NCBI GenBank assembly: GCA_002937505.1
Contig: PTJY01000004.1
Location: 189,186-253,185, forward strand
Source: Alphaproteobacteria bacterium MarineAlpha12_Bin1
Lineage (GTDB): Bacteria > Pseudomonadota > Alphaproteobacteria > UBA6615
Reading direction: 5' to 3'
DNA: 64,000 nt
The first letter of the stretch is position 1, and each line of letters begins with the position of its first letter. A program made the position numbers and the translations under genes. Shown here one piece after another: positions 16,062 to 26,409 of this stretch. The notes below the pieces were generated by a model that had not been told where the DNA came from, ran no database searches, and saw only the letters and a program-made list of their open reading frames with translations.

Positions 16062-16727
16062 ATGAATCAAAGTTTATATAAGGAGTTCATGGAATCTATA
16101 ATACAGTATAGGTTTAAGAATTTAGCTCTTTTGAATCAGGCAATGACACACGTTAGTTCAGGTGTAGTAAATAATGAGAGACTGGAATTTTTGGGAGATA
16201 GAATACTTGGTTTAGTTATAGCTGAACTCCTTCTCGAAAAATTTCCTCACGAAAACGAAGGTGACATAGGCAAACGTTATGCTAGCCTTGTGCAGAGTGA
16301 AACGCTCGCTTTGATAGGTAACCGTCTTAATTTGAAAAAGTACCTTCATGCGGTTGGGACAGAAATCAATGACAGTATCATCGGAGATGCAACAGAAGCT
16401 TTGATTGCAGCTATTTACTTGGATGGTGGATATACAGTTTCAGCTGAATTTATTAAAAAATACTGGAATCCTCTTATTAAGTTATCGGATATGCCCCCAC
16501 AAGACTCGAAGACCAAACTACAAGAAATGAGTCAAGCAAAGGGCTTGGGGTTGCCAATCTATCGAAATATCTCAAGAGAAGGACCTGATCATAATCCCAT
16601 ATTTCAGGTAGAAGTTTCGGTGAAGAAATTTGGTAAATTTGTTGGCAGAGGGACCAGTAAAAAAAATGCTGAGCAAGAGGCTGCAACACAACTTTTGCAA
16701 AAGGTGAAAAGCAAAAGTGACGCCTGA
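16062..16727 (+). CDS. rnc: Ribonuclease III
   Basis: A 221-residue RNase III, which cuts double-stranded RNA including rRNA precursors. The nuclease signature NERLEFLGDRILGLVIAELL begins near residue 38 (catalytic E42 and D46), with GDATEALIAAIYLDGG near 115-130. The double-stranded RNA-binding domain is at about 150-220, ending in KNAEQEAATQLL. It overlaps era by 11 bp. Confidence 0.96.
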   Translation: MNQSLYKEFMESIIQYRFKNLALLNQAMTHVSSGVVNNERLEFLGDRILGLVIAELLLEKFPHENEGDIGKRYASLVQSETLALIGNRLNLKKYLHAVGTEINDSIIGDATEALIAAIYLDGGYTVSAEFIKKYWNPLIKLSDMPPQDSKTKLQEMSQAKGLGLPIYRNISREGPDHNPIFQVEVSVKKFGKFVGRGTSKKNAEQEAATQLLQKVKSKSDA

Positions 16728-17619
16728 TAATACTAAATGTGGGTTAGTTTCTATCATAGGATTACCGAACGCCGGTAAGTCCACACTTTTAAATAACTTT
16801 GTTGGTGAGAAAATATCTATTGTAACTCATAAGGTTCAAACAACTAGATCACGTGTTAGAGGAGTATCAATAGTTGGTAATACACAGATTGTTTACATAG
16901 ACACACCCGGAATATTTAAAGCAAAAAGACGCCTAGAAAGATCTATGGTTGATGCTGCCTGGTCAAGTGTTAAAGATGCAGATGCTGTCGTTGCAGTAAT
17001 AGATGCGTATAGAGGAGTAGATGATAAAGTCAAAACTTTGCTAGTGGAAGTAAATGAACGGGCTCATGAAGCTATATTGGTTCTCAATAAAGTTGACAAA
17101 GTAAAGCGTGAGTTTTTACTTTCATTAACAAATGATCTAAGCAGAATTACAAAATACGAAGCGGTGTTTATGGTGTCTGCATCAAAAGGAGATGGAATAG
17201 AAGATTTACAAAATTATATTGCGTCGCTTATGAGCCCAGGACCTTGGTTGTATCCAGGTGACCAGTTGTCTGACCTTCCACAGAGGCTTGTCGCTTCTGA
17301 AACAACAAGAGAAAAAGCGTATTTATTTTTACATCAAGAATTACCCTATTCACTCTCAGTTTTTACTGAAGAGTGGAAAGTGTTACGAGATAAGAGTGTT
17401 CGCATGAGACAAGTTATATACGTAGAAAGAGACACACAAAAAGCAATTGTTTTAGGGAAATCTGGAGAAACTATCAAAAAAATCAGGATGTCATCTCAGA
17501 AAGAAATGATTGATATATTTGATACAGAAGTTCATCTATTTATTGAAGTGAAAGTAAGGAAAAATTGGGTCAATGATCCTAGGGTATATGAGGAATGGGG
17601 TTTAAAATTTGACATTTGA
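16717..17619 (+). CDS. era: GTPase Era
   Basis: A 300-residue Era GTPase that binds 16S rRNA and assists 30S subunit maturation. G1 GLPNAGKST at residues 15-23, G3 DTPGIF near 62, and G4 NKVDK near 126 are intact. The KH RNA-binding domain at the C-terminus has IVLGKSGETIKKIRMSS. It starts with GTG at 16717 inside the end of rnc, which implies translational coupling. Confidence 0.97.
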   Translation: MTPDNTKCGLVSIIGLPNAGKSTLLNNFVGEKISIVTHKVQTTRSRVRGVSIVGNTQIVYIDTPGIFKAKRRLERSMVDAAWSSVKDADAVVAVIDAYRGVDDKVKTLLVEVNERAHEAILVLNKVDKVKREFLLSLTNDLSRITKYEAVFMVSASKGDGIEDLQNYIASLMSPGPWLYPGDQLSDLPQRLVASETTREKAYLFLHQELPYSLSVFTEEWKVLRDKSVRMRQVIYVERDTQKAIVLGKSGETIKKIRMSSQKEMIDIFDTEVHLFIEVKVRKNWVNDPRVYEEWGLKFDI

Positions 17620-17647
17620 CCGAGTCACTACTAGTTGGATTTGCTAA

Positions 17648-18388
17648 ATGGAATGGATTGACCAAGCAATAATAATTGGTTCTAGAAAACATGGAGAAAA
17701 AGCTTCAATAGTCCAGATGTTAACAAAAAACCATGGAAAACACGCAGGTCTACTTTCTGGTGGGAGCACTTCTTCTAAAAGACATCTTGTAGAACCTGGT
17801 AATTATGTAAGTGCAAATTGGCGCGGAAGATTACCTGAGCATCTTGGCAGGGTTAATATAGAGCTAGAACGGTCGTTTGGAGCTGTAATTCTTGGTGAAC
17901 CAAAAAAATTAGCTGCTCTAAACTCTATTTGCGAGATTATATTATTAGTATTACCTGAAAGAGAATCACATAATGAGATTTTTATGGCCACACTGTTTCT
18001 TTTACAAAACATGGCAAATGAGCAGGATGATATCTGGTTAGCTCTGTATGTTAGATGGGAGCTAGGTTTGCTCGGTGCATTAGGGTTTGGATTACAGTTA
18101 TCTACATGTGCAGTCACTGGGCAAACTAATAATCTAGCATATGTTAGCCCTAAAACTGGTCGAGCAGTGACTATGGATATCGGTCTTCCTTACAAAGATC
18201 AATTATTTGTTTTGCCTGACTTTTTATCGAATGGCGAACGCAATCATGGTAACGCGAGTTACAAAGACATTGTGAATGGCGCTAAATTGACCGGTTATTT
18301 TTTAGAAAAACATGTTTTTGCTACTCTTAATAAAACTCTTCCCCCAATGAGAAATAGGTTTTTTGATCTAATGAATAAAGAAATTTAA
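17648..18388 (+). CDS. recO: DNA repair protein RecO
   Basis: A 246-residue RecO, which with RecR loads RecA onto SSB-coated DNA. The N-terminal OB fold (about residues 1-80) starts MEWIDQAIIIGSRKHGEKASIV. The C-terminal half carries CAVTGQTNNLAYVSPKTGRAV, typical of alphaproteobacterial RecO. Only one cysteine remains there, so the zinc site of some RecO proteins is absent. It follows era by 28 bp and precedes parC by 79 bp. Confidence 0.94.
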   Translation: MEWIDQAIIIGSRKHGEKASIVQMLTKNHGKHAGLLSGGSTSSKRHLVEPGNYVSANWRGRLPEHLGRVNIELERSFGAVILGEPKKLAALNSICEIILLVLPERESHNEIFMATLFLLQNMANEQDDIWLALYVRWELGLLGALGFGLQLSTCAVTGQTNNLAYVSPKTGRAVTMDIGLPYKDQLFVLPDFLSNGERNHGNASYKDIVNGAKLTGYFLEKHVFATLNKTLPPMRNRFFDLMNKEI

Positions 18389-18467
18389 TAAACAACTGGT
18401 ATAGCAAAAATCAATAAGTTGATTTAAAACACCAAAATGATACTAGATATAGGGTAGTATTTATAAG

Positions 18468-20693
18468 ATGTCTTTAAATGGCGCTAACGGAAATATACGT
18501 GAAGAAAGTTTTAAAGATGCTCTCAGTGAGAGATACCTAAACTATGCCGTGTCTACAATTATGTCTCGGTCGTTACCTGATGTTAGAGATGGTTTGAAAC
18601 CAGTTCACAGAAGGCTTCTATACGCAATGCTGCAGTTACGTTTAAATCCAGAACAAGGGTTTAAAAAGTGCGCTCGTATCGTTGGCGATGTAATGGGAAA
18701 GTATCATCCACATGGGGACCAAGCTATTTATGATGCATTAGTAAGGTTGGCTCAGCAATTCTCTGTTAGATACCCATTAATTGATGGTCAAGGAAATTTT
18801 GGTAATATAGACGGCGATAATGCTGCGGCAATGAGATATACAGAATCCAGATTGACGGAAACTGCCATATCATTGCTAGAGGGTATTGAGCAAGACTCTG
18901 TTGATTTTAGAGACACTTACGATGGTGACAGTTCGGAGCCAATAGTTTTGCCGGCAAATTTTCCAAATTTATTGGCGAATGGTGCGAGTGGCATTGCTGT
19001 AGGCATGGCCTCAAGTATTCCACCACATAACGTTTGTGAAATTTATGATGCAGCGTTACATCTTTTGAAAACCCCTAATGCAACAATTACTAAATTAGTT
19101 AGTTTTATTTCTGGCCCAGATTTTCCAACAGGTGGTATTTTAGTTGAAAATAAGAATACATTGGTTGAAGCATACAGTCAGGGAAAAGGAAGTTTTCGTA
19201 TTCGTTCCAAATGGGAAGTCGAAAATCTAGCACATGGACAGTATCAAGTGGTCATAACTGAGATACCGTACTTGGTTCAGAAGTCCAGACTAATTGAAAA
19301 AATAGCTGATCTTTTGCAACAAAGAAAATTGCTCCTTTTATCAGATATTAGAGACGAGTCTGCTGATGATATTCGCCTTGTTCTTGAGCCGAAGAATAGG
19401 AACGTTGATCCAGAGCTGCTAATGGAAAGTTTATTTCGAACAACGGAGTTAGAATCACGGTTTAACCTAAATATGAACGTCATTGATTCAAATCAAAATC
19501 CTCGGGTTATGTCATTGAGAGAAGTTCTCCAAGCATTTATTGACCACCGTCATGATATTCTGATTAGGAGCAATAAATATAAACTTAATAATATAATCCG
19601 ACGGTTAGAGATCCTAAATGGTTATATGATTGTTTATTTAAATCTGGATGAAGTAATACGCGTCATCAGAGAAGAAGAAGATCCAAAGTCAGTGTTTAAA
19701 ATTAAGTGGGATTTGAGTGATGTTCAATCCGATGCGATTTTAAATATGAGATTACGGTCCCTTCGTCGTCTTGAAGAACTTTCCATTAAAACTGAAATAA
19801 CGAATTTAAAATCTGAAAAAAAGTTAATTAAACATTTATTAGAAAACAAAAAAAAGCGTTTAGAGCACATAAGTGATGAATTTAAAACTGTTAAAAAACA
19901 ATATAACAATAAGACATCCATTGGAAAAAGGAGGACAATAATTGGTGAAGCCCCCAAAGAGGTGGACATATCTACTGAGCTGGTTATCGAAAAGGAGGAG
20001 GTTACGGTTGTTTGTTCGCAGAAAGGTTGGGTGCGAACAATTAAAGGGCATGAATTAAAAATTAATGAATTAAAATATAAAGAGGGTGATAAAGAAAGAT
20101 TCATTATTAAGGCGTTAACCACAGATAAACTAATTTTATTTGCTAGTGATGGTAGATTTTTTACACTGGAGGTAAATAAGTTACCTGGTGGTAGGGGACA
20201 TGGTGAGCCAATTAGTCTTATGATTGATCTAGGAAATGAAACAGAATTAGTTAATGTTTTAACATACCATGAAAGTATGAAACTCGTTATTTCTTCTGAT
20301 ACTGGGAGAGGGTTTATAGTTCCTGAGAAAGATGTTGTTGCTCAGACCCGAGCTGGAAAAAAAGTCTTATTTTTAGATGAAGGTGCTGAATCGCATATAT
20401 GTAGGCCTATAAATGGTGATCATATAGCTTTAATAGGAACAAATAGGAAGCTGCTAATTTTTCCTATTGAGGAAGTGCCAATTATGTCTAAAGGAAAGGG
20501 AGTAAGATTGCAGAATTATACTAGTGGTAGGTTAGCTGATTTAACAACTTTTTTTCTAGAACAAGGATTAATGGTTCGAACAGGAAACCGAAACAGAACT
20601 TTCAGTTCCAAAGAAATCGTCCAATGGTCTGGTAAAAGGGCCCAAACAGGAAGGTTGCCGCCTGCCGGTTTTCCTCGCTCTAATGTTTTTTAG
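18468..20693 (+). CDS. parC: DNA topoisomerase IV subunit A
   Basis: A 741-residue type IIA topoisomerase A subunit that decatenates daughter chromosomes with ParE. The catalytic tyrosine is Y124 in [32 protein letters not shown] is near 36-55 and the coiled-coil and C-terminal beta-pinwheel follow ([12 protein letters not shown] near 575). ParC is chosen over GyrA because of the length, the position after recO and the alphaproteobacterial sequence [20 protein letters not shown]. At the quinolone-determining positions it has Q85 and D89 where E. coli ParC has Ser80 and Glu84. Confidence 0.93.
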
Positions 20694-20765
20694 TGTGATT
20701 AAAGTAAACAGTTAAATATTATGGATAGTTATAAATTGTGAATTATTTAGAAAGGGAATAAAAAC

Positions 20766-21380
20766 ATGAACAATACGATAGCCCACCAATCTACTATTGT
20801 TAGCTCAATTTGGCCAAACAGAGGCTCATCGTTAGACATGCGTATTATTCGGGGTATTATTCTAGCGATTATAGGAAGTTTTGTCGTTGCTACTTTGGCT
20901 CAGATATCAGTCCCTCTTTGGCCTGTGCCTATCACTGGGCAAACTTTTGGGGTTTTAATTGTTGGGATGGCATTGGGTTGTAAACTAGGTGTGTTATCGC
21001 TCACTCTTTATATGTTGGAAGGCATTTGTGGTTTACCTGTCTTCGCTAATTTTAGCTCTGGTCCTGGAGTTATATTCGGACCTACGGGTGGCTACATAGT
21101 TGGTTTCATAATAGCTGCTGGTGCAGTTGGCTATATGGCAGAGAGAACATGGGATCGCTCAATAGTTTTTACAGCATTAGCAATGCTAATTGGAAATATA
21201 ATACTTTATATACCTGGGTTAATTTGGCTTGGTTTATTTTTTTTAGGACTGGGTAAAACTGATCCGCTTATGGCAACAATTACTGCTGGTTTATTTCCAT
21301 TTCTGATTGGGGACTTTCTAAAACTTGCTTTGGCTGCATTGTTATTCCCAACAGCATGGAGATATCTTCTAACTAAGTAA
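20766..21380 (+). CDS. bioY: Biotin transporter BioY
   Basis: A 204-residue membrane protein with about six hydrophobic segments, the substrate-binding S component of the biotin ECF transporter. Characteristic sequence includes AQISVPLWPVPITGQTFGVL near residues 56-75, LYMLEGICGLPVFA near 92-105 and GPTGGYIVGF near 118-127. No EcfA/EcfT genes are adjacent; solitary BioY proteins occur in Alphaproteobacteria and can transport biotin themselves or with shared EcfAT. It supplies biotin for enzymes such as AccB. AAAGGG precedes the start. Confidence 0.94.
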   Translation: MNNTIAHQSTIVSSIWPNRGSSLDMRIIRGIILAIIGSFVVATLAQISVPLWPVPITGQTFGVLIVGMALGCKLGVLSLTLYMLEGICGLPVFANFSSGPGVIFGPTGGYIVGFIIAAGAVGYMAERTWDRSIVFTALAMLIGNIILYIPGLIWLGLFFLGLGKTDPLMATITAGLFPFLIGDFLKLALAALLFPTAWRYLLTK

Positions 21381-21430: not shown

Positions 21431-24097
21431 CTAGAAGTTAAGTGATATGTCTCGGTGGACTGCTTGACAGCCGGCTATTTTTCTCGCCATTGCTGCAGGC
21501 AGTCGTTCCTGTAACCGTATTCCGATTGAGTTACGAATTTTTAATTCATATTCGCTCAGTTGTTTAAACAACTTCTTTTCTGCGAGAGTTCTCCATTTAA
21601 CCTCCATTTCAAATATTTTTATTGCTTCATTAATTAAAATTAAAGATTTACTTCTGTCTTTACTTGTTTTTCTCAAGGAGCGTGATGCTTTTCTCAACTT
21701 AGATGTAATTAAATTTGTGCTGGGCGCAGACTTTGAAACTACACTTATGACTTCTTTAATTGATTTTTTTGCATCTTTTATCGAACTATTCTGAACTATA
21801 TCAATAAGTGATTTGATTTTCGTTGAGGTGCTTTGTAAATCTGGTCCGGATTTTGCACTCATTAAAAGATCCTTTATTGGCTGGTAAGCGTCGTCAACAT
21901 TACGGCGGTATTTTATCCGTGCTAATTTTTCTGATTTTAGTAAATTTTGAAAATTCTTTTTTTCTGTAACCCAATTTGCGGGTATTTCATTCATGATGCG
22001 CTTTTTTTCACTTTTGAGTAATTCTATATTTCTTTCTATTTGTTTTAGAGATATTCTTTCAGTTTGGTTTCCATTTTGTATCCGCCGTTTAAGGTTTTGA
22101 AATTCTTTTATTTTGTTTTTTATATCTCTTTCTTGTTTCTGTATCTGACGCACTTGTTTATGTAATGGTCTATATCCTGGTGTGGCTAGGTCAATTTTTA
22201 TTTCAGAACTTTGAACCCTATCTACAAGTTCAAAAGTGTTTAGTGCAGCTGAAAAACTCTTTTCAATTTTGTTGCGACGTATTTCAGGCAAATAACTTAT
22301 ATCTATTGCTTTAGCCGAAGAAATTGTATTTCTTAGGCTTGCTTCATTATCTTTATAATAAACAAACATTTGTTTCTCTAGACAGTTTTGTAATCTTCTA
22401 TTTTTTGGTGGAGGAGCGGTTTCTGAAGTTAAAAATGCTTGGTTTGGTAGAAAGTTAACTAAACTAGGGAAAGCCCCTACAATACCTAAACCCACTAGTT
22501 GTAGAATAATAAATGCTACTACACCTTTATAAATGTCAGTGGTTTTAACTTCTATAGATGCAACTCCTCGTAAATAGAATAAAGCAAAACCAAAAGGTGG
22601 TGTTAAAAACGATGTTTGCATGTTTACACCAATCATAACTCCTAGCCATACGGCTGTTATGTTGGCTGCTGGATCTGATAGTAGGATGGGGGCAACAATA
22701 GGAACGACAACAACTGCTATCTCGATGAAGTCTAAAAAGAATCCTAGTAGAAATATTACAGCCATAACTACTATAAATTGTGCCCAAAAACCTCCAGGTA
22801 AACCTGTTAAAAATTCTTTTACAAGATGTTCTCCACCAAAACTTCTAAATGCAGCAGTCAGCATTGCTGCTCCAAGTAAAATGATAAATACCATTGACGT
22901 GGTTTTTGCTGTTTCAACCATGACGCCTTTTAGTGTGTCGTCAATTTTTATAGTTCTCCAGCCACTCCAGCCGACAGAGAAAATTAGCGACAACACAGCA
23001 ATAATAGCGATAATTATTCCTATAGTGTCTTCCTGAGAGTTTATGTTTTTGATGTTTAAATCAAATTGGTTAATTAGGGTAAGTATTATAGTTATGGAGA
23101 TAATCGCTATTATTGCAGGAGTAAAAGCTCCTTTTTTACCTTCCATAAGACGATAACCAGCCATTATCATTGCACCAATTGCTCCAATAGCTCCGGCTTG
23201 GTTAACCGTTGCGATACCCATAATAATTGATCCAAGTACAGCGAGTATCAATGTCAAAGGAGGAACCAAAGCTAGCAGAACTCGAAAAGCAAATTGTAAG
23301 TCTAGTTTGCTGTTTGAATGAACTGGAGGAGCCATATGTGGTCTTACTAAGGCAGTGATGAGAATATAGGTCACATACAGTGCAACAAGAACTAAGCCAG
23401 GTAGTAAGGCTCCCAGAAACATATCACCTGCGCTAGTCGAAGTGATTCCAAATTCAGTTGGTAAAGTTGTTTGGCCAGTTGCGTTCTTGTACTCTTGCCA
23501 ACGAATAGTGGCTGCTTGATCAGTTGCATTCGATAATTGATCGGCAAGAATAATTAACACTATAGACGGTGGTATTATCTGACCTAATGTACCTGCAGCA
23601 GCTATAGTGCCTGATGCAAGAGACTTAGAGTAATTATTTCGCAACATTGCAGGCAGTGAAATTAATCCCATTGCTACTACTGTTGCTCCTAGAATACCCG
23701 TGGTAGCAGCGAGTAACGCGCCAACAAGCACAACTGAGATTCCAAGTCCCCCAGGAATTGGACCAAATAGTTGAGCCATTGTTACAAGAAGGTCTTCAGC
23801 AATTTTTGAACGTTGCAGCATTATTCCCATAAATACAAATAAGGGTACCGCTATTAATGTGTCCCGCTCTACCTCCCAGTAAATACCCCGAAAATTGGTT
23901 ACTCCGGCGGTAAGCCATTGGACAGGACCATCTTGAGCAAAATAAGCACTAACATCCCCAGCAAATATTGATCCTGCAATAGAAGCTAGTCCTATTGTTA
24001 GAATTGCTGACCCGGGCAGCGCAAATGCAACAGGAAAACCTGCAGCCAGAGCCCCAGCCATTGTCAAAACGAGTATTGCTAAGAAGAATAGTTCCAT
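21431..24097 (-). CDS. TRAP transporter large permease (DctM) with long C-terminal extension
   Basis: An 888-residue protein. Residues 1 to about 555 are the DctM membrane subunit of a TRAP (tripartite ATP-independent periplasmic) importer, driven by a sodium or proton gradient, with many hydrophobic helices and motifs such as VPLFVFMGIMLQRS, GTLGQIIPPSIVL and LLGFFLDFIEIAV. An insertion of about 80 residues adds two extra helices around positions 300-370, as in the larger mannitol/chloroaromatic-type DctM subgroup. From about 565 to 888 there is a hydrophilic Lys/Arg/Glu-rich tail with predicted helices and coiled coil and no recognised domain. Usual DctM proteins are about 430 residues. It is the last gene of dctP-dctQ-dctM. 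Confidence 0.9.
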   Translation of the reverse strand: MELFFLAILVLTMAGALAAGFPVAFALPGSAILTIGLASIAGSIFAGDVSAYFAQDGPVQWLTAGVTNFRGIYWEVERDTLIAVPLFVFMGIMLQRSKIAEDLLVTMAQLFGPIPGGLGISVVLVGALLAATTGILGATVVAMGLISLPAMLRNNYSKSLASGTIAAAGTLGQIIPPSIVLIILADQLSNATDQAATIRWQEYKNATGQTTLPTEFGITSTSAGDMFLGALLPGLVLVALYVTYILITALVRPHMAPPVHSNSKLDLQFAFRVLLALVPPLTLILAVLGSIIMGIATVNQAGAIGAIGAMIMAGYRLMEGKKGAFTPAIIAIISITIILTLINQFDLNIKNINSQEDTIGIIIAIIAVLSLIFSVGWSGWRTIKIDDTLKGVMVETAKTTSMVFIILLGAAMLTAAFRSFGGEHLVKEFLTGLPGGFWAQFIVVMAVIFLLGFFLDFIEIAVVVVPIVAPILLSDPAANITAVWLGVMIGVNMQTSFLTPPFGFALFYLRGVASIEVKTTDIYKGVVAFIILQLVGLGIVGAFPSLVNFLPNQAFLTSETAPPPKNRRLQNCLEKQMFVYYKDNEASLRNTISSAKAIDISYLPEIRRNKIEKSFSAALNTFELVDRVQSSEIKIDLATPGYRPLHKQVRQIQKQERDIKNKIKEFQNLKRRIQNGNQTERISLKQIERNIELLKSEKKRIMNEIPANWVTEKKNFQNLLKSEKLARIKYRRNVDDAYQPIKDLLMSAKSGPDLQSTSTKIKSLIDIVQNSSIKDAKKSIKEVISVVSKSAPSTNLITSKLRKASRSLRKTSKDRSKSLILINEAIKIFEMEVKWRTLAEKKLFKQLSEYELKIRNSIGIRLQERLPAAMARKIAGCQAVHRDISLNF

Positions 24098-24177: not shown

Positions 24178-25194
24178 TTACAATTCTGGTTCGCCTTTTA
24201 AGTCAGCAGCGCTAGATAAAAAATAGCTTGTAAATTGTATCATCATCGAAAGAGCATATACGGCTAAAAACCCTGCCATTAAATATTTGACATATAGCCC
24301 AAACCCACTTTGTGTCATCTCAAATGCGAGCAATGGACTATTAATAACTGTAGCTTTACTCCACATTCCAAGGGCTAATATAGTCCAACATAATGGGACA
24401 CCTAACAAAATTGATCCAACTAAATTAACCCATGCCTTTTTCGTTTTGTTAAATCCTGCATATAGAACATCCACTCTAACATGTGCATCCTCAATCAGGG
24501 TGTAGGCACTTGCAAAAAGAAAGAGAGCTGCATACCAGAATCTTACAAGATCTCCTAGAAATGCTTGTTCATAAGAAAATATAAAACGAACTATAACTAT
24601 TTGAAATTCAGCAATTACTACTAATAATGCTAGCCAGATAAAGCTCAGCCCTTTTATGTAATAAGCAAAGATTAAAGAGATTAGTATTAGGGGGTAATGA
24701 ACGTAGATTCCTCTAAATCTTGATTGGGCAAGAGATTTTTCAAGCTCAGATCCTACGACATCTGAAAGCAATCCTTCAACTCTTAGGAATGAAATAGCAC
24801 TATCGACGACACCAATGAACAAAACAGCCCAAAAAGCGACACGTATAATATAAGCTGAGAGAGATGTAAGGCAAGAAGCGTCTTCTCTTAATGCCCTATT
24901 ACTTGTTAAAACTATGTATAGTACCAGAACAAGCAATAAGCCTACGTAACTAGTTACCTGTAACCAGCCAAGTAAAATTTCAACGTCTGAAAGTGATTTT
25001 TTTACTGGTTCTAACCCAAACCAGTTTTTATTTGAAAACAAAGTTATTAAACCAGGCCAACCACGCCAGAAAATTAAATAATTATTAATAAGAAATATAA
25101 AAGCCATTCCAATTGTTGAAAGAGCAATAAATCTTATAGCCAGATTGGTTTTAAGAGATCTGGTTAGTTGATTTTTTGATACTACCGGGTTCAA
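24178..25194 (-). CDS. TRAP transporter small permease (DctQ), extended form
   Basis: A 338-residue membrane protein. The DctQ domain lies in the C-terminal half: EDAHVRVDVLYAGFNKTKKAWVN near residues 236-258 is the family signature, followed by two helices. The N-terminal 170 or so residues add about four further hydrophobic segments (near 18-36, 75-97, 112-135 and 165-185). Standard DctQ proteins are about 160-200 residues, so both permease subunits of this system are enlarged. It works with DctM and the binding protein to import an organic acid. It lies between dctP and dctM, with an intercistronic hairpin on the dctP side. Confidence 0.85.
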   Translation of the reverse strand: MNPVVSKNQLTRSLKTNLAIRFIALSTIGMAFIFLINNYLIFWRGWPGLITLFSNKNWFGLEPVKKSLSDVEILLGWLQVTSYVGLLLVLVLYIVLTSNRALREDASCLTSLSAYIIRVAFWAVLFIGVVDSAISFLRVEGLLSDVVGSELEKSLAQSRFRGIYVHYPLILISLIFAYYIKGLSFIWLALLVVIAEFQIVIVRFIFSYEQAFLGDLVRFWYAALFLFASAYTLIEDAHVRVDVLYAGFNKTKKAWVNLVGSILLGVPLCWTILALGMWSKATVINSPLLAFEMTQSGFGLYVKYLMAGFLAVYALSMMIQFTSYFLSSAADLKGEPEL

Positions 25195-25311: not shown

Positions 25312-26409
25312 TTATAAGCCGAGAACTCTGTTGCGCTGTCTTAGATAAGCGACATCAGCAATATTGGCCCATGCTCCAACTTCACTTCGAGATTTGGTGA
25401 AACTTTCATGGATCTTATTTGCTAATGGACTATGAGCTCTGACTTCTTCAAAGACTTCGTTAGCAGCCGTTCCAAAACTATCATAGATCTCGTCATTAAA
25501 TTCACGAAGCTGAACACCTTGATCTTTTATAAGAGAAGCCAAGGCAGCACCATTTTTAGCATTGTACTCAGACATCATAACGTCGTTTTCCATCGATGCT
25601 GCTGATTCTAAGATCGTCTGATCGTTTTTGGATAATTTACTCCAAAATGAGGCATTCATTCCGAACGACAACATTGATCCAGGTTCGTGCATGCCCGGGA
25701 AGTAATAATATTTAGCTGCTTCATAGAATTTCATGAAGCCGTCATTCCAGGGGCCAACCCACTCGGTTGCATCGATAGCGCCAGATACAAGGTTTTCATA
25801 AATTTGGCCACCAGGTAATGAAACAGGTGAGGCACCAAGTTTTGCCATGACATCACCACCTAGGCCTGGGATACGCATTTTCAGACCTTTAAGATCGTCA
25901 GCTGAGTTTATTTCCTTGTTAAACCAGCCACCCATTTGTACACCAGTACTTCCAGCCATAACTGCTTTAATACCGAAACTTCCAGCTAATTCGTCCCAAA
26001 GTTGTTGTCCGCCACCAAATCGTATCCAAGCATTCATTTCAGTATAAGTTAAACCAAATGGAACTGAGGTGAAGTAGGCCCAACCAGGATGTTTGCCTTT
26101 CCAATAATAATCTGCTGCGTGATATGCTTGTGCATTGCCTGAGGCAACCTCATCGAAGGAATCAAATGCCCCGACACGTTCGCCAGCAGCGAAGTACTCT
26201 ATTTGAATTCGGCCGTCACTCATGTCTGCAATTCGCTTAGCCATTCTTTGAGCGCCTGTTCCTAAACCAGGAAAATCGCGAGGCCATGTGGCCACCATGG
26301 CTATTTCAACGCGATCTTTTGCTATTGCAGGTGTTGCAAAACCGGTTGCTGCAAGAGCGCTACCTGCGCTGGCGATACCAGCTGTTTTAATAAATTTACG
26401 TCTTTTCAT
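25312..26409 (-). CDS. TRAP transporter solute-binding protein (DctP/TakP-like)
   Basis: A 365-residue periplasmic binding protein. The N-terminus MKRRKFIKTAG, then a hydrophobic stretch and ATPAIAKD, looks like a Tat-type signal peptide cleaved near residue 30. Signatures include LKGLKMRIPGLGGDVMAKLG near 172-191, PVSLPGGQIYENLVSGAIDA near 193-212 and EWVGPWND near 214-221, close to the TakP-type subgroup that binds alpha-keto acids. The ligand is therefore predicted to be a keto acid or related carboxylate, by inference. AGGGAGAG gives a strong ribosome-binding site. It is the first gene of the TRAP operon. Confidence 0.92.
   Translation of the reverse strand: MKRRKFIKTAGIASAGSALAATGFATPAIAKDRVEIAMVATWPRDFPGLGTGAQRMAKRIADMSDGRIQIEYFAAGERVGAFDSFDEVASGNAQAYHAADYYWKGKHPGWAYFTSVPFGLTYTEMNAWIRFGGGQQLWDELAGSFGIKAVMAGSTGVQMGGWFNKEINSADDLKGLKMRIPGLGGDVMAKLGASPVSLPGGQIYENLVSGAIDATEWVGPWNDGFMKFYEAAKYYYFPGMHEPGSMLSFGMNASFWSKLSKNDQTILESAASMENDVMMSEYNAKNGAALASLIKDQGVQLREFNDEIYDSFGTAANEVFEEVRAHSPLANKIHESFTKSRSEVGAWANIADVAYLRQRNRVLGL

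Follow-up and report, generated by a model that had tools for sequence, protein, structure and literature searches.

A putative periplasmic helical arm on the large permease of TakP-type TRAP transporters for alpha-keto acids

A TRAP transporter operon is located in a 64,000-nucleotide stretch of DNA from Alphaproteobacteria bacterium MarineAlpha12_Bin1 (GCA_002937505.1, contig PTJY01000004.1, positions 189,186 to 253,185), which is called the window below, and its large permease, DctM (M), carries about 330 residues beyond the last membrane helix in the same frame. With moderate confidence, we read these residues as a helical arm that projects into the periplasm from the elevator domain of a TakP-type importer for alpha-keto acids (DctP-type TRAP), is braced by an enlarged small permease, DctQ (Q), and probably docks the substrate-binding protein (P). 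The arm would leave the last transmembrane helix, a part of the moving transport domain, via a proline-rich elbow, extend as a long helical hairpin, pass through a small helical bundle and then return; a disulfide between Cys572 and Cys877 would hold its two ends together close to the membrane. The arm would rest on the enlarged Q, which has about four additional membrane helices, and help to dock and retain a dimer-forming TakP-type P above the transport domain. Attachment of the arm to the elevator domain is suggested by homology, and bracing by Q and docking of P are proposed on indirect grounds. Coupling of TRAP binding proteins to the elevator is an open question, for which such an arm gives a concrete and testable docking element.

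DctM is encoded by a single unbroken ORF of 888 aa (Table 1). PF06808 matches it with 206.6 bits against a cut-off of 23.8 (whole-protein E 7.4e-61) in two stretches, the better of which covers residues 219-545, and TIGR00786 gives 255.9 bits, under its own cut-off of 268.45. The AlphaFold2 model of the full-length protein has a pLDDT of 79.9 and a pTM of 0.69 as a whole, and its core, predicted with moderate confidence, is weaker than the extension. The modelled core matches 7qha_B (TMt 0.82, E 2.4e-10, 546 columns) and 9pym_A (E 1.5e-10), and is, as modelled, the elevator fold of the solved TRAP M subunits. This core fold is common to SiaQM (7qha, 7qe5, 8thi and 8y4w) and IseQM (9pym); in four of these five chains (7qha is outside the four) no domain follows the core, the window core aligning to within 5 residues of the chain end. 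Na+-driven, binding-protein-dependent uptake is the putative function of the DctM system. Two additional hydrophobic helices are predicted in the model between the elevator repeats, at residues 326-344 and 355-384 (window 22946-23122). A further TRAP large permease (L002, G000:C11:10803-12173) is found within a 782-aa open frame in the genome of the window.

Table 1. Features of the TRAP operon in the window (window coordinates).
Feature	Position	Strand	Basis
TRAP large permease (DctM/TakM-like), 888 aa	21431..24097	-	PF06808 match; model matches TRAP QM structures (9pym, 7qha, others)
DctM membrane core, residues 1-555, elevator fold (modelled)	22433..24097	-	Pfam, AlphaFold2 model, hydropathy, structure match
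DctM C-terminal extension, residues 556-888, helical domain, most likely periplasmic	21434..22432	-	Alignment, AlphaFold2; topology by homology and loop charges
Pro-rich elbow APPPxN, residues 561-566, nearly invariant; chain exits membrane core here	22400..22417	-	Alignment
Cys572 codon, near domain start	22382..22384	-	Invariant 67/67
Long helical hairpin, residues 605-749 (helices 605-675, 678-702, 709-749)	21851..22285	-	Alignment and AlphaFold2
Helical bundle, residues 751-854	21536..21847	-	AlphaFold2; most (754-838) absent from one divergent relative
Conserved C-terminal end CxxxHRDISLNF, residues 877-888, with invariant Cys877	21434..21469	-	Alignment
TRAP small permease (DctQ), 338 aa, canonical from about residue 177	24178..25194	-	PF04290
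DctQ N-terminal extension, residues 1-176	24667..25194	-	Hydropathy peaks; Q-extension profile
Substrate-binding protein, TakP (SmoM) family	25312..26409	-	2hzk E 8.2e-78, 4pet E 5.6e-79

The extension begins with the APPPxN elbow followed by LQxC and ends with GxRxQxxL...CxxxHRDISLxF, both strongly conserved across 67 sequences, and the hairpin bears the conserved motifs YxPxHxxxR and ARxxYRxxxDxxY. Its cysteines are exactly two, C572 and C877, both invariant in 67/67 sequences, and apart from them no DctM column has Cys in more than 30% of these sequences. A hydrophobic peak is missing from the 67 aligned extensions (maximum 19-residue mean 0.54). Modelled alone from a 73-sequence alignment, the extension gave a mean pLDDT of 89.8 and a pTM of 0.82, in accord with the initial annotation, which had looked to a confident fold and co-conservation with an enlarged DctQ as signs of a real module. 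The predicted order is a first helix, the hairpin (a 71-residue helix and its return helices), the helical bundle, and a last helix with Cys877. Inside the full-length model, the pLDDT of the extension is mostly 85-95 and falls to 64 near residue 675.

No domain had been recognised in the extension at first, and indeed Pfam and NCBIfam gave no family at E<=0.01 for that of the window. For the 73 extension sequences, the matches listed (25 of 82 Pfam and 25 of 51 NCBIfam families) are scattered and mostly coiled-coil or helical; the commonest NCBIfam match is SMC (47 of 73 members, best E 6.2e-8), which we read as coiled-coil background because it is accompanied by other unrelated coiled-coil families. 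Foldseek comparison of the extension model with the PDB returned 0 matches at E<=0.001 (best E 0.074), and a second fold comparison (VIA) gave assorted generic helical bundles with Z up to 11.3, within the common range, results which do not establish a new fold.

The extension is most likely periplasmic, since solved M subunits have their C-terminus outside and the core matches them in fold, with loop charges in agreement. In the structure 7qha, the 12 segments of M are described as N-out/C-out, TM10-12 belonging to the transport domain, and the orientation given for Q is N-in/C-in (PMC9971032); for FnSiaQM, a periplasmic C-terminus was inferred without direct observation, as stated in PMC11801797. 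The additional helices 326-344 and 355-384 leave the parity unchanged. Conserved Lys and Arg per loop amount to 2.0, 1.7, 3.4, 3.1, 0.9, and 1.0 in the six inside loops and to 0, 0, 0, 1.5, 0, and 0 in the six outside loops, or about 12.1 vs 1.5 in sum, where the sides were assigned by us via homology and 9 of the 21 inter-helix stretches were left out. Those left out are hairpin tips, arm-helix joints, within-helix breaks, and the turn 17-24 (which would be inside, with 0.0); the stretches 73-82 and 418-423 have 1.0 each. This pattern agrees with a C-out topology and is not a strong test alone; the homology carries the argument. A lone invariant Cys pair is what is expected of a periplasmic disulfide, and C572 and C877 may well form one.

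The initial annotation described a hydrophilic extension of about 325 residues after residue 560, and this length holds beyond the window: from residue 566 onward the extension measures 310-325 residues in 67/67 complete sequences (window included), and extended M is encoded in one frame in all 66 complete relatives. Among 60 related genomes, the own one included, 20 have the extension, several of them with the gene cut at contig ends; 19 of these carriers come from the window's family, represented by 24 genomes, and the twentieth comes from a different family. The other five genomes of the family gave no extension match, and one of them (G003, 93% complete) has the short form. Scanning of named genomes with the extension profile gave at least 558 tblastn-confirmed stretches, of which 80 were kept as loci; where the records of these 80 give a placement, the carriers are Alpha- and Gammaproteobacteria, including Pelagibacteraceae (L125, L132), with Stappiaceae among the tree labels. 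M is complete in 66 of the 80 loci (876-974 aa as called, the longest probably with over-called starts), Q is complete in 66 (317-386 aa), and both are in 65; the two loci in which only one of them is complete are L132, where Q ends at the contig end, and L148, where the M frame is broken. In wider sets, the profile matches 32 of 385 class genomes and 8 of 398 phylum genomes, one phylum match (G558) being weak (E 1.5e-4). One of the class matches (G230) was rejected as a false positive, M, Q, and P all being missing, and the two lowest-scoring true ones (G107 and G221) have lost either the bundle (window residues 754-838) or part of the hairpin tip, but not the two cysteines or the whole of the C-terminal end.

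Of 11 pairs, nine were estimable for dN/dS, which was 0.07-0.37 in the extension (two of the nine with dS near 2.7, near saturation, and the remaining two pairs saturated) and 0.03-0.16 in the core (likewise 9/11 estimable). By these ratios, the extension is under purifying selection. The initial annotation had named absence from close relatives and a lack of selection as what would speak against the module; instead, 66 complete relatives and the above ratios were found. In an M-core tree of 34 of the 67 long forms and 19 others, made by a quick method and with several long branches among the short forms, a branch with SH-aLRT 100 separates all long forms from the others, corresponding to one change. 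Of the two divergent relatives, L210 lacks window residues 754-838 in the bundle and L211 lacks part of the hairpin tip; the cysteine pair is kept and His881 is gone in both. M of L210 (1742-4138), with its shortened arm, is also adjoined by two tandem TakP-like binding-protein genes.

The small permease is also unusual. PF04290 matches DctQ with 30 bits against a cut-off of 28.3 and only at residues 199-319, and no NCBIfam match was obtained for DctQ at E<=1. The N-terminal enlargement, put at about 170 residues in the initial annotation and amounting to about 176, probably consists of four additional membrane helices; Pfam gave no family at E<=0.01 for this region in 14 of 14 members. A duplicated DctQ, with an N-half related to the C-half, was also considered and found no support (hhalign probability 0.5%). 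An independent Q-extension profile matches 32 of the 385 class genomes, and both extensions are found in 30 genomes. The mismatches consist of a contig end leaving only the C-terminal end of Q (G131), M cut by a contig end (G030 and G059), and the false-positive G230. The operon of G216 is divided between two contigs, with Q cut on both. That both subunits deviate together, as noticed at first in the window, is therefore seen without true exception in the 385 class genomes wherever contig ends permit checking. For comparison, short or variant relatives were taken if their M reached 450 aa or more. Of the Q ORFs of these 19, 16 are 170-259 aa as called, one (L061) is over-called (752 aa, match at 591-734), and two (L071 and L074) are longer and different; the Q-extension profile has no match in the seven of their genomes that were compared with it (G026, G031, G032, G038, G039, G041, and G045).

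The dctP gene lies upstream of dctQ in the operon. In TakP, sodium-pyruvate is reported to be bound by Tyr100, Gln156, Arg177, Glu214, Trp215, and Glu240, in TakP numbering (PMC1839085). These six residues are identical in all 56 P proteins sampled from extended systems (window included), a sample limited to near complete proteins more than 60% identical to the window's P; among the P proteins of short or variant systems, 17 to 19 of 19 keep them. Because the ligand residues are conserved, the substrate is presumably an alpha-keto acid. Extended-system P proteins end in a QRNRVLGL-like tail, with NRVLG in 37 of 56 and variants in the others, and the NRVLG tail is rare in short or variant systems (1 of 19, namely L074). 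The C-terminal region of the window's P aligns with TakP, and by homology P would be a helix-swapped dimer of the TakP type.

Which partner the arm contacts can be approached from divergence. With the M core controlled, divergence of the extension still correlates with that of P (partial r 0.21, a value reached in 10 of 500 permutations); this correlation vanishes once the M core and both parts of Q are controlled (partial r 0.06, 125/500, 47 sequences), while that between the extension and the Q extension survives all controls (partial r 0.29, 0/500, 47 sequences). Used for choosing P or Q as the partner, such distance-matrix correlation favours the Q extension and is confounded by evolutionary rate. 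The main rival explanation builds on this: the arm would be a structural brace, which lies against the enlarged Q on its periplasmic side or joins two QM units into a dimer, with no contact to P. Co-occurrence of extended M with extended Q and divergence following the Q extension rather than P speak for it, and parallel QM dimers through Q have been described for HiSiaQM (PMC10942642). Against it, the last helix, to which the arm is attached, belongs to the moving transport domain, where a static brace would be unexpected; P of these systems also carries a conserved tail of its own, which suggests joint change of the three parts, and correlation between fast-evolving regions can arise from rate alone. 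We regard a brace without P contact as rather unlikely, and prefer docking of P by an arm that is braced by Q. The model of HiSiaPQM places the two binding-protein lobes on the stator and the elevator (PMC9352664), so that P would be close to an elevator-borne arm. Counting against a need for the arm, short-form systems with TakP-like P, mostly with the same six ligands, exist armless, and hence the arm is not required for keto-acid TRAP transport as such.

It is improbable that the arm is instead a periplasmic sensor or gate, which would read ligand, redox state, or cell-envelope condition via the cysteine pair and tune transport. The two invariant cysteines, the strongly conserved C-terminal end, and a hairpin and bundle variable in length would suit such a role, whereas the window's extension has neither a sensor-domain match (E<=0.01) nor a PDB fold match (E<=0.001), and the loss of His881 from both divergent relatives speaks against a Cys-His metal site. 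A metal site of Cys877 and His881 is disfavoured on the same ground, His881 being replaced in these two relatives.

Even less probable is a cytoplasmic extension scaffolding an enzyme, a regulator, or nucleic acid. The initial annotation placed it in the cytoplasm from its positive charge, and residues 556-888 of the window's DctM indeed contain 70 K+R and 37 D+E; this net charge of +33 is, however, the maximum of a range from -25 to +33 with a median of -2 over 67 sequences. Lys/Arg richness, taken at first for a property of the domain, is on this comparison a trait of the window's lineage. C-out solved M subunits with the core fold match, the invariant lone Cys pair, and the loop charges also argue against the cytoplasmic side. 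Among the roles that had been offered, nucleic-acid sensing is thus disfavoured, and scaffolding of a partner is the best one left, but on the periplasmic side. An assembly error or a chance fusion of two genes has a negligible probability, as nothing in the window speaks for it, and the same single frame under purifying selection is found in the 66 complete relatives. One relative (L148, 4340-6993), from a metagenome-assembled genome, has a frame broken in M; the break lies between the core and the extension, both parts are present, and either a sequencing error or a pseudogene would account for it.

A comparable element is known in the TAXI-type TRAP transporter VcGluQM of Vibrio cholerae, whose C-terminal "claw" domain lies in the periplasm and is predicted to touch the binding protein; an extension of this type is stated there to be unreported in DctP-type TRAPs (PMC11574862). 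The claw and the present arm are alike in being C-terminal extensions of a TRAP membrane component on the transport-domain side, a likeness in role. In the TAXI system, the claw is formed by a beta-rich DUF3394 domain flanked by extra membrane helices, whereas the arm is predicted to be all-helical, follows directly after the last helix, bears the Cys pair, and is part of a DctP-type transporter whose Q and M are separate; DUF3394 is not among the Pfam matches of the window's DctM or of the extension at E<=1. Among the papers listed in a literature search by titles and abstract starts, largely outside subscription journals, none describes such an extension in DctP-type TRAPs. The P2 domain of MalF, a periplasmic domain of the membrane subunit of the maltose ABC importer, holds the binding protein, and its resemblance to the arm is a works-like analogy only, from an unrelated transporter class. 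The claw has been compared with MalEFGK2 by its authors (PMC11574862). A periplasmic domain in DctP-type TRAPs of marine lineages, including Pelagibacteraceae, would mean that TAXI systems are not the only ones with domains of this kind, as suggested in the claw paper (PMC11574862).

TakPQM of Rhodobacter sphaeroides shares with the window the binding-protein family, the six sodium-pyruvate ligands, and the grouping of the P, Q, and M genes (PMC1839085). In the same paper, TakP is a helix-swapped dimer, proposed possibly to stay bound to the membrane subunits, and how it engages its membrane partners was left open in 2007 (PMC1839085); the arm is a candidate for retaining a TakP-type dimer on these subunits. 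Q of HiSiaQM and PpSiaQM is described with four helices (PMC9352664, PMC9971032). Tentatively, and with some doubt, one may go further and regard the extended systems as an architectural class of their own among DctP-type TRAPs, with joint remodelling of M, Q, and P. In such a class, the moving elevator would carry a disulfide-closed helical arm that grips the dimeric P, keeps it mounted, and passes its opening and closing on to the elevator.

Two DctM variants of 784 aa, L071 (5470-7824) and L074 (4769-7123), have, like the window, a related core of the keto-acid TRAP group, an enlarged but different Q (307 and 325 aa), and P proteins whose tails (AQRDRVMG and QRNRVLGI) are similar to those in the extended systems. 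Unlike the window, they lack the C-terminal arm; instead, about 200 residues are inserted between helices 6 and 7, including a common stretch NVSEECxASMIDLHG; the genome of L071 (G045) gave no match to the M- or Q-extension profile. Possibly, these two represent a second, independent remodelling.

The operon in the window is adjoined by era, recO, parC, and bioY (16717-21380). Among the 80 named loci, flanking ORFs are ParC-like in 29, BioY-like in 19, RecO-like in 16, and Era-like in 14, the clusters being named by eye from sequence and many flanks being cut. Since homologous-looking neighbours recur in up to 29 of the 80 loci, the operon seems to be a stable chromosomal locus in many carriers.
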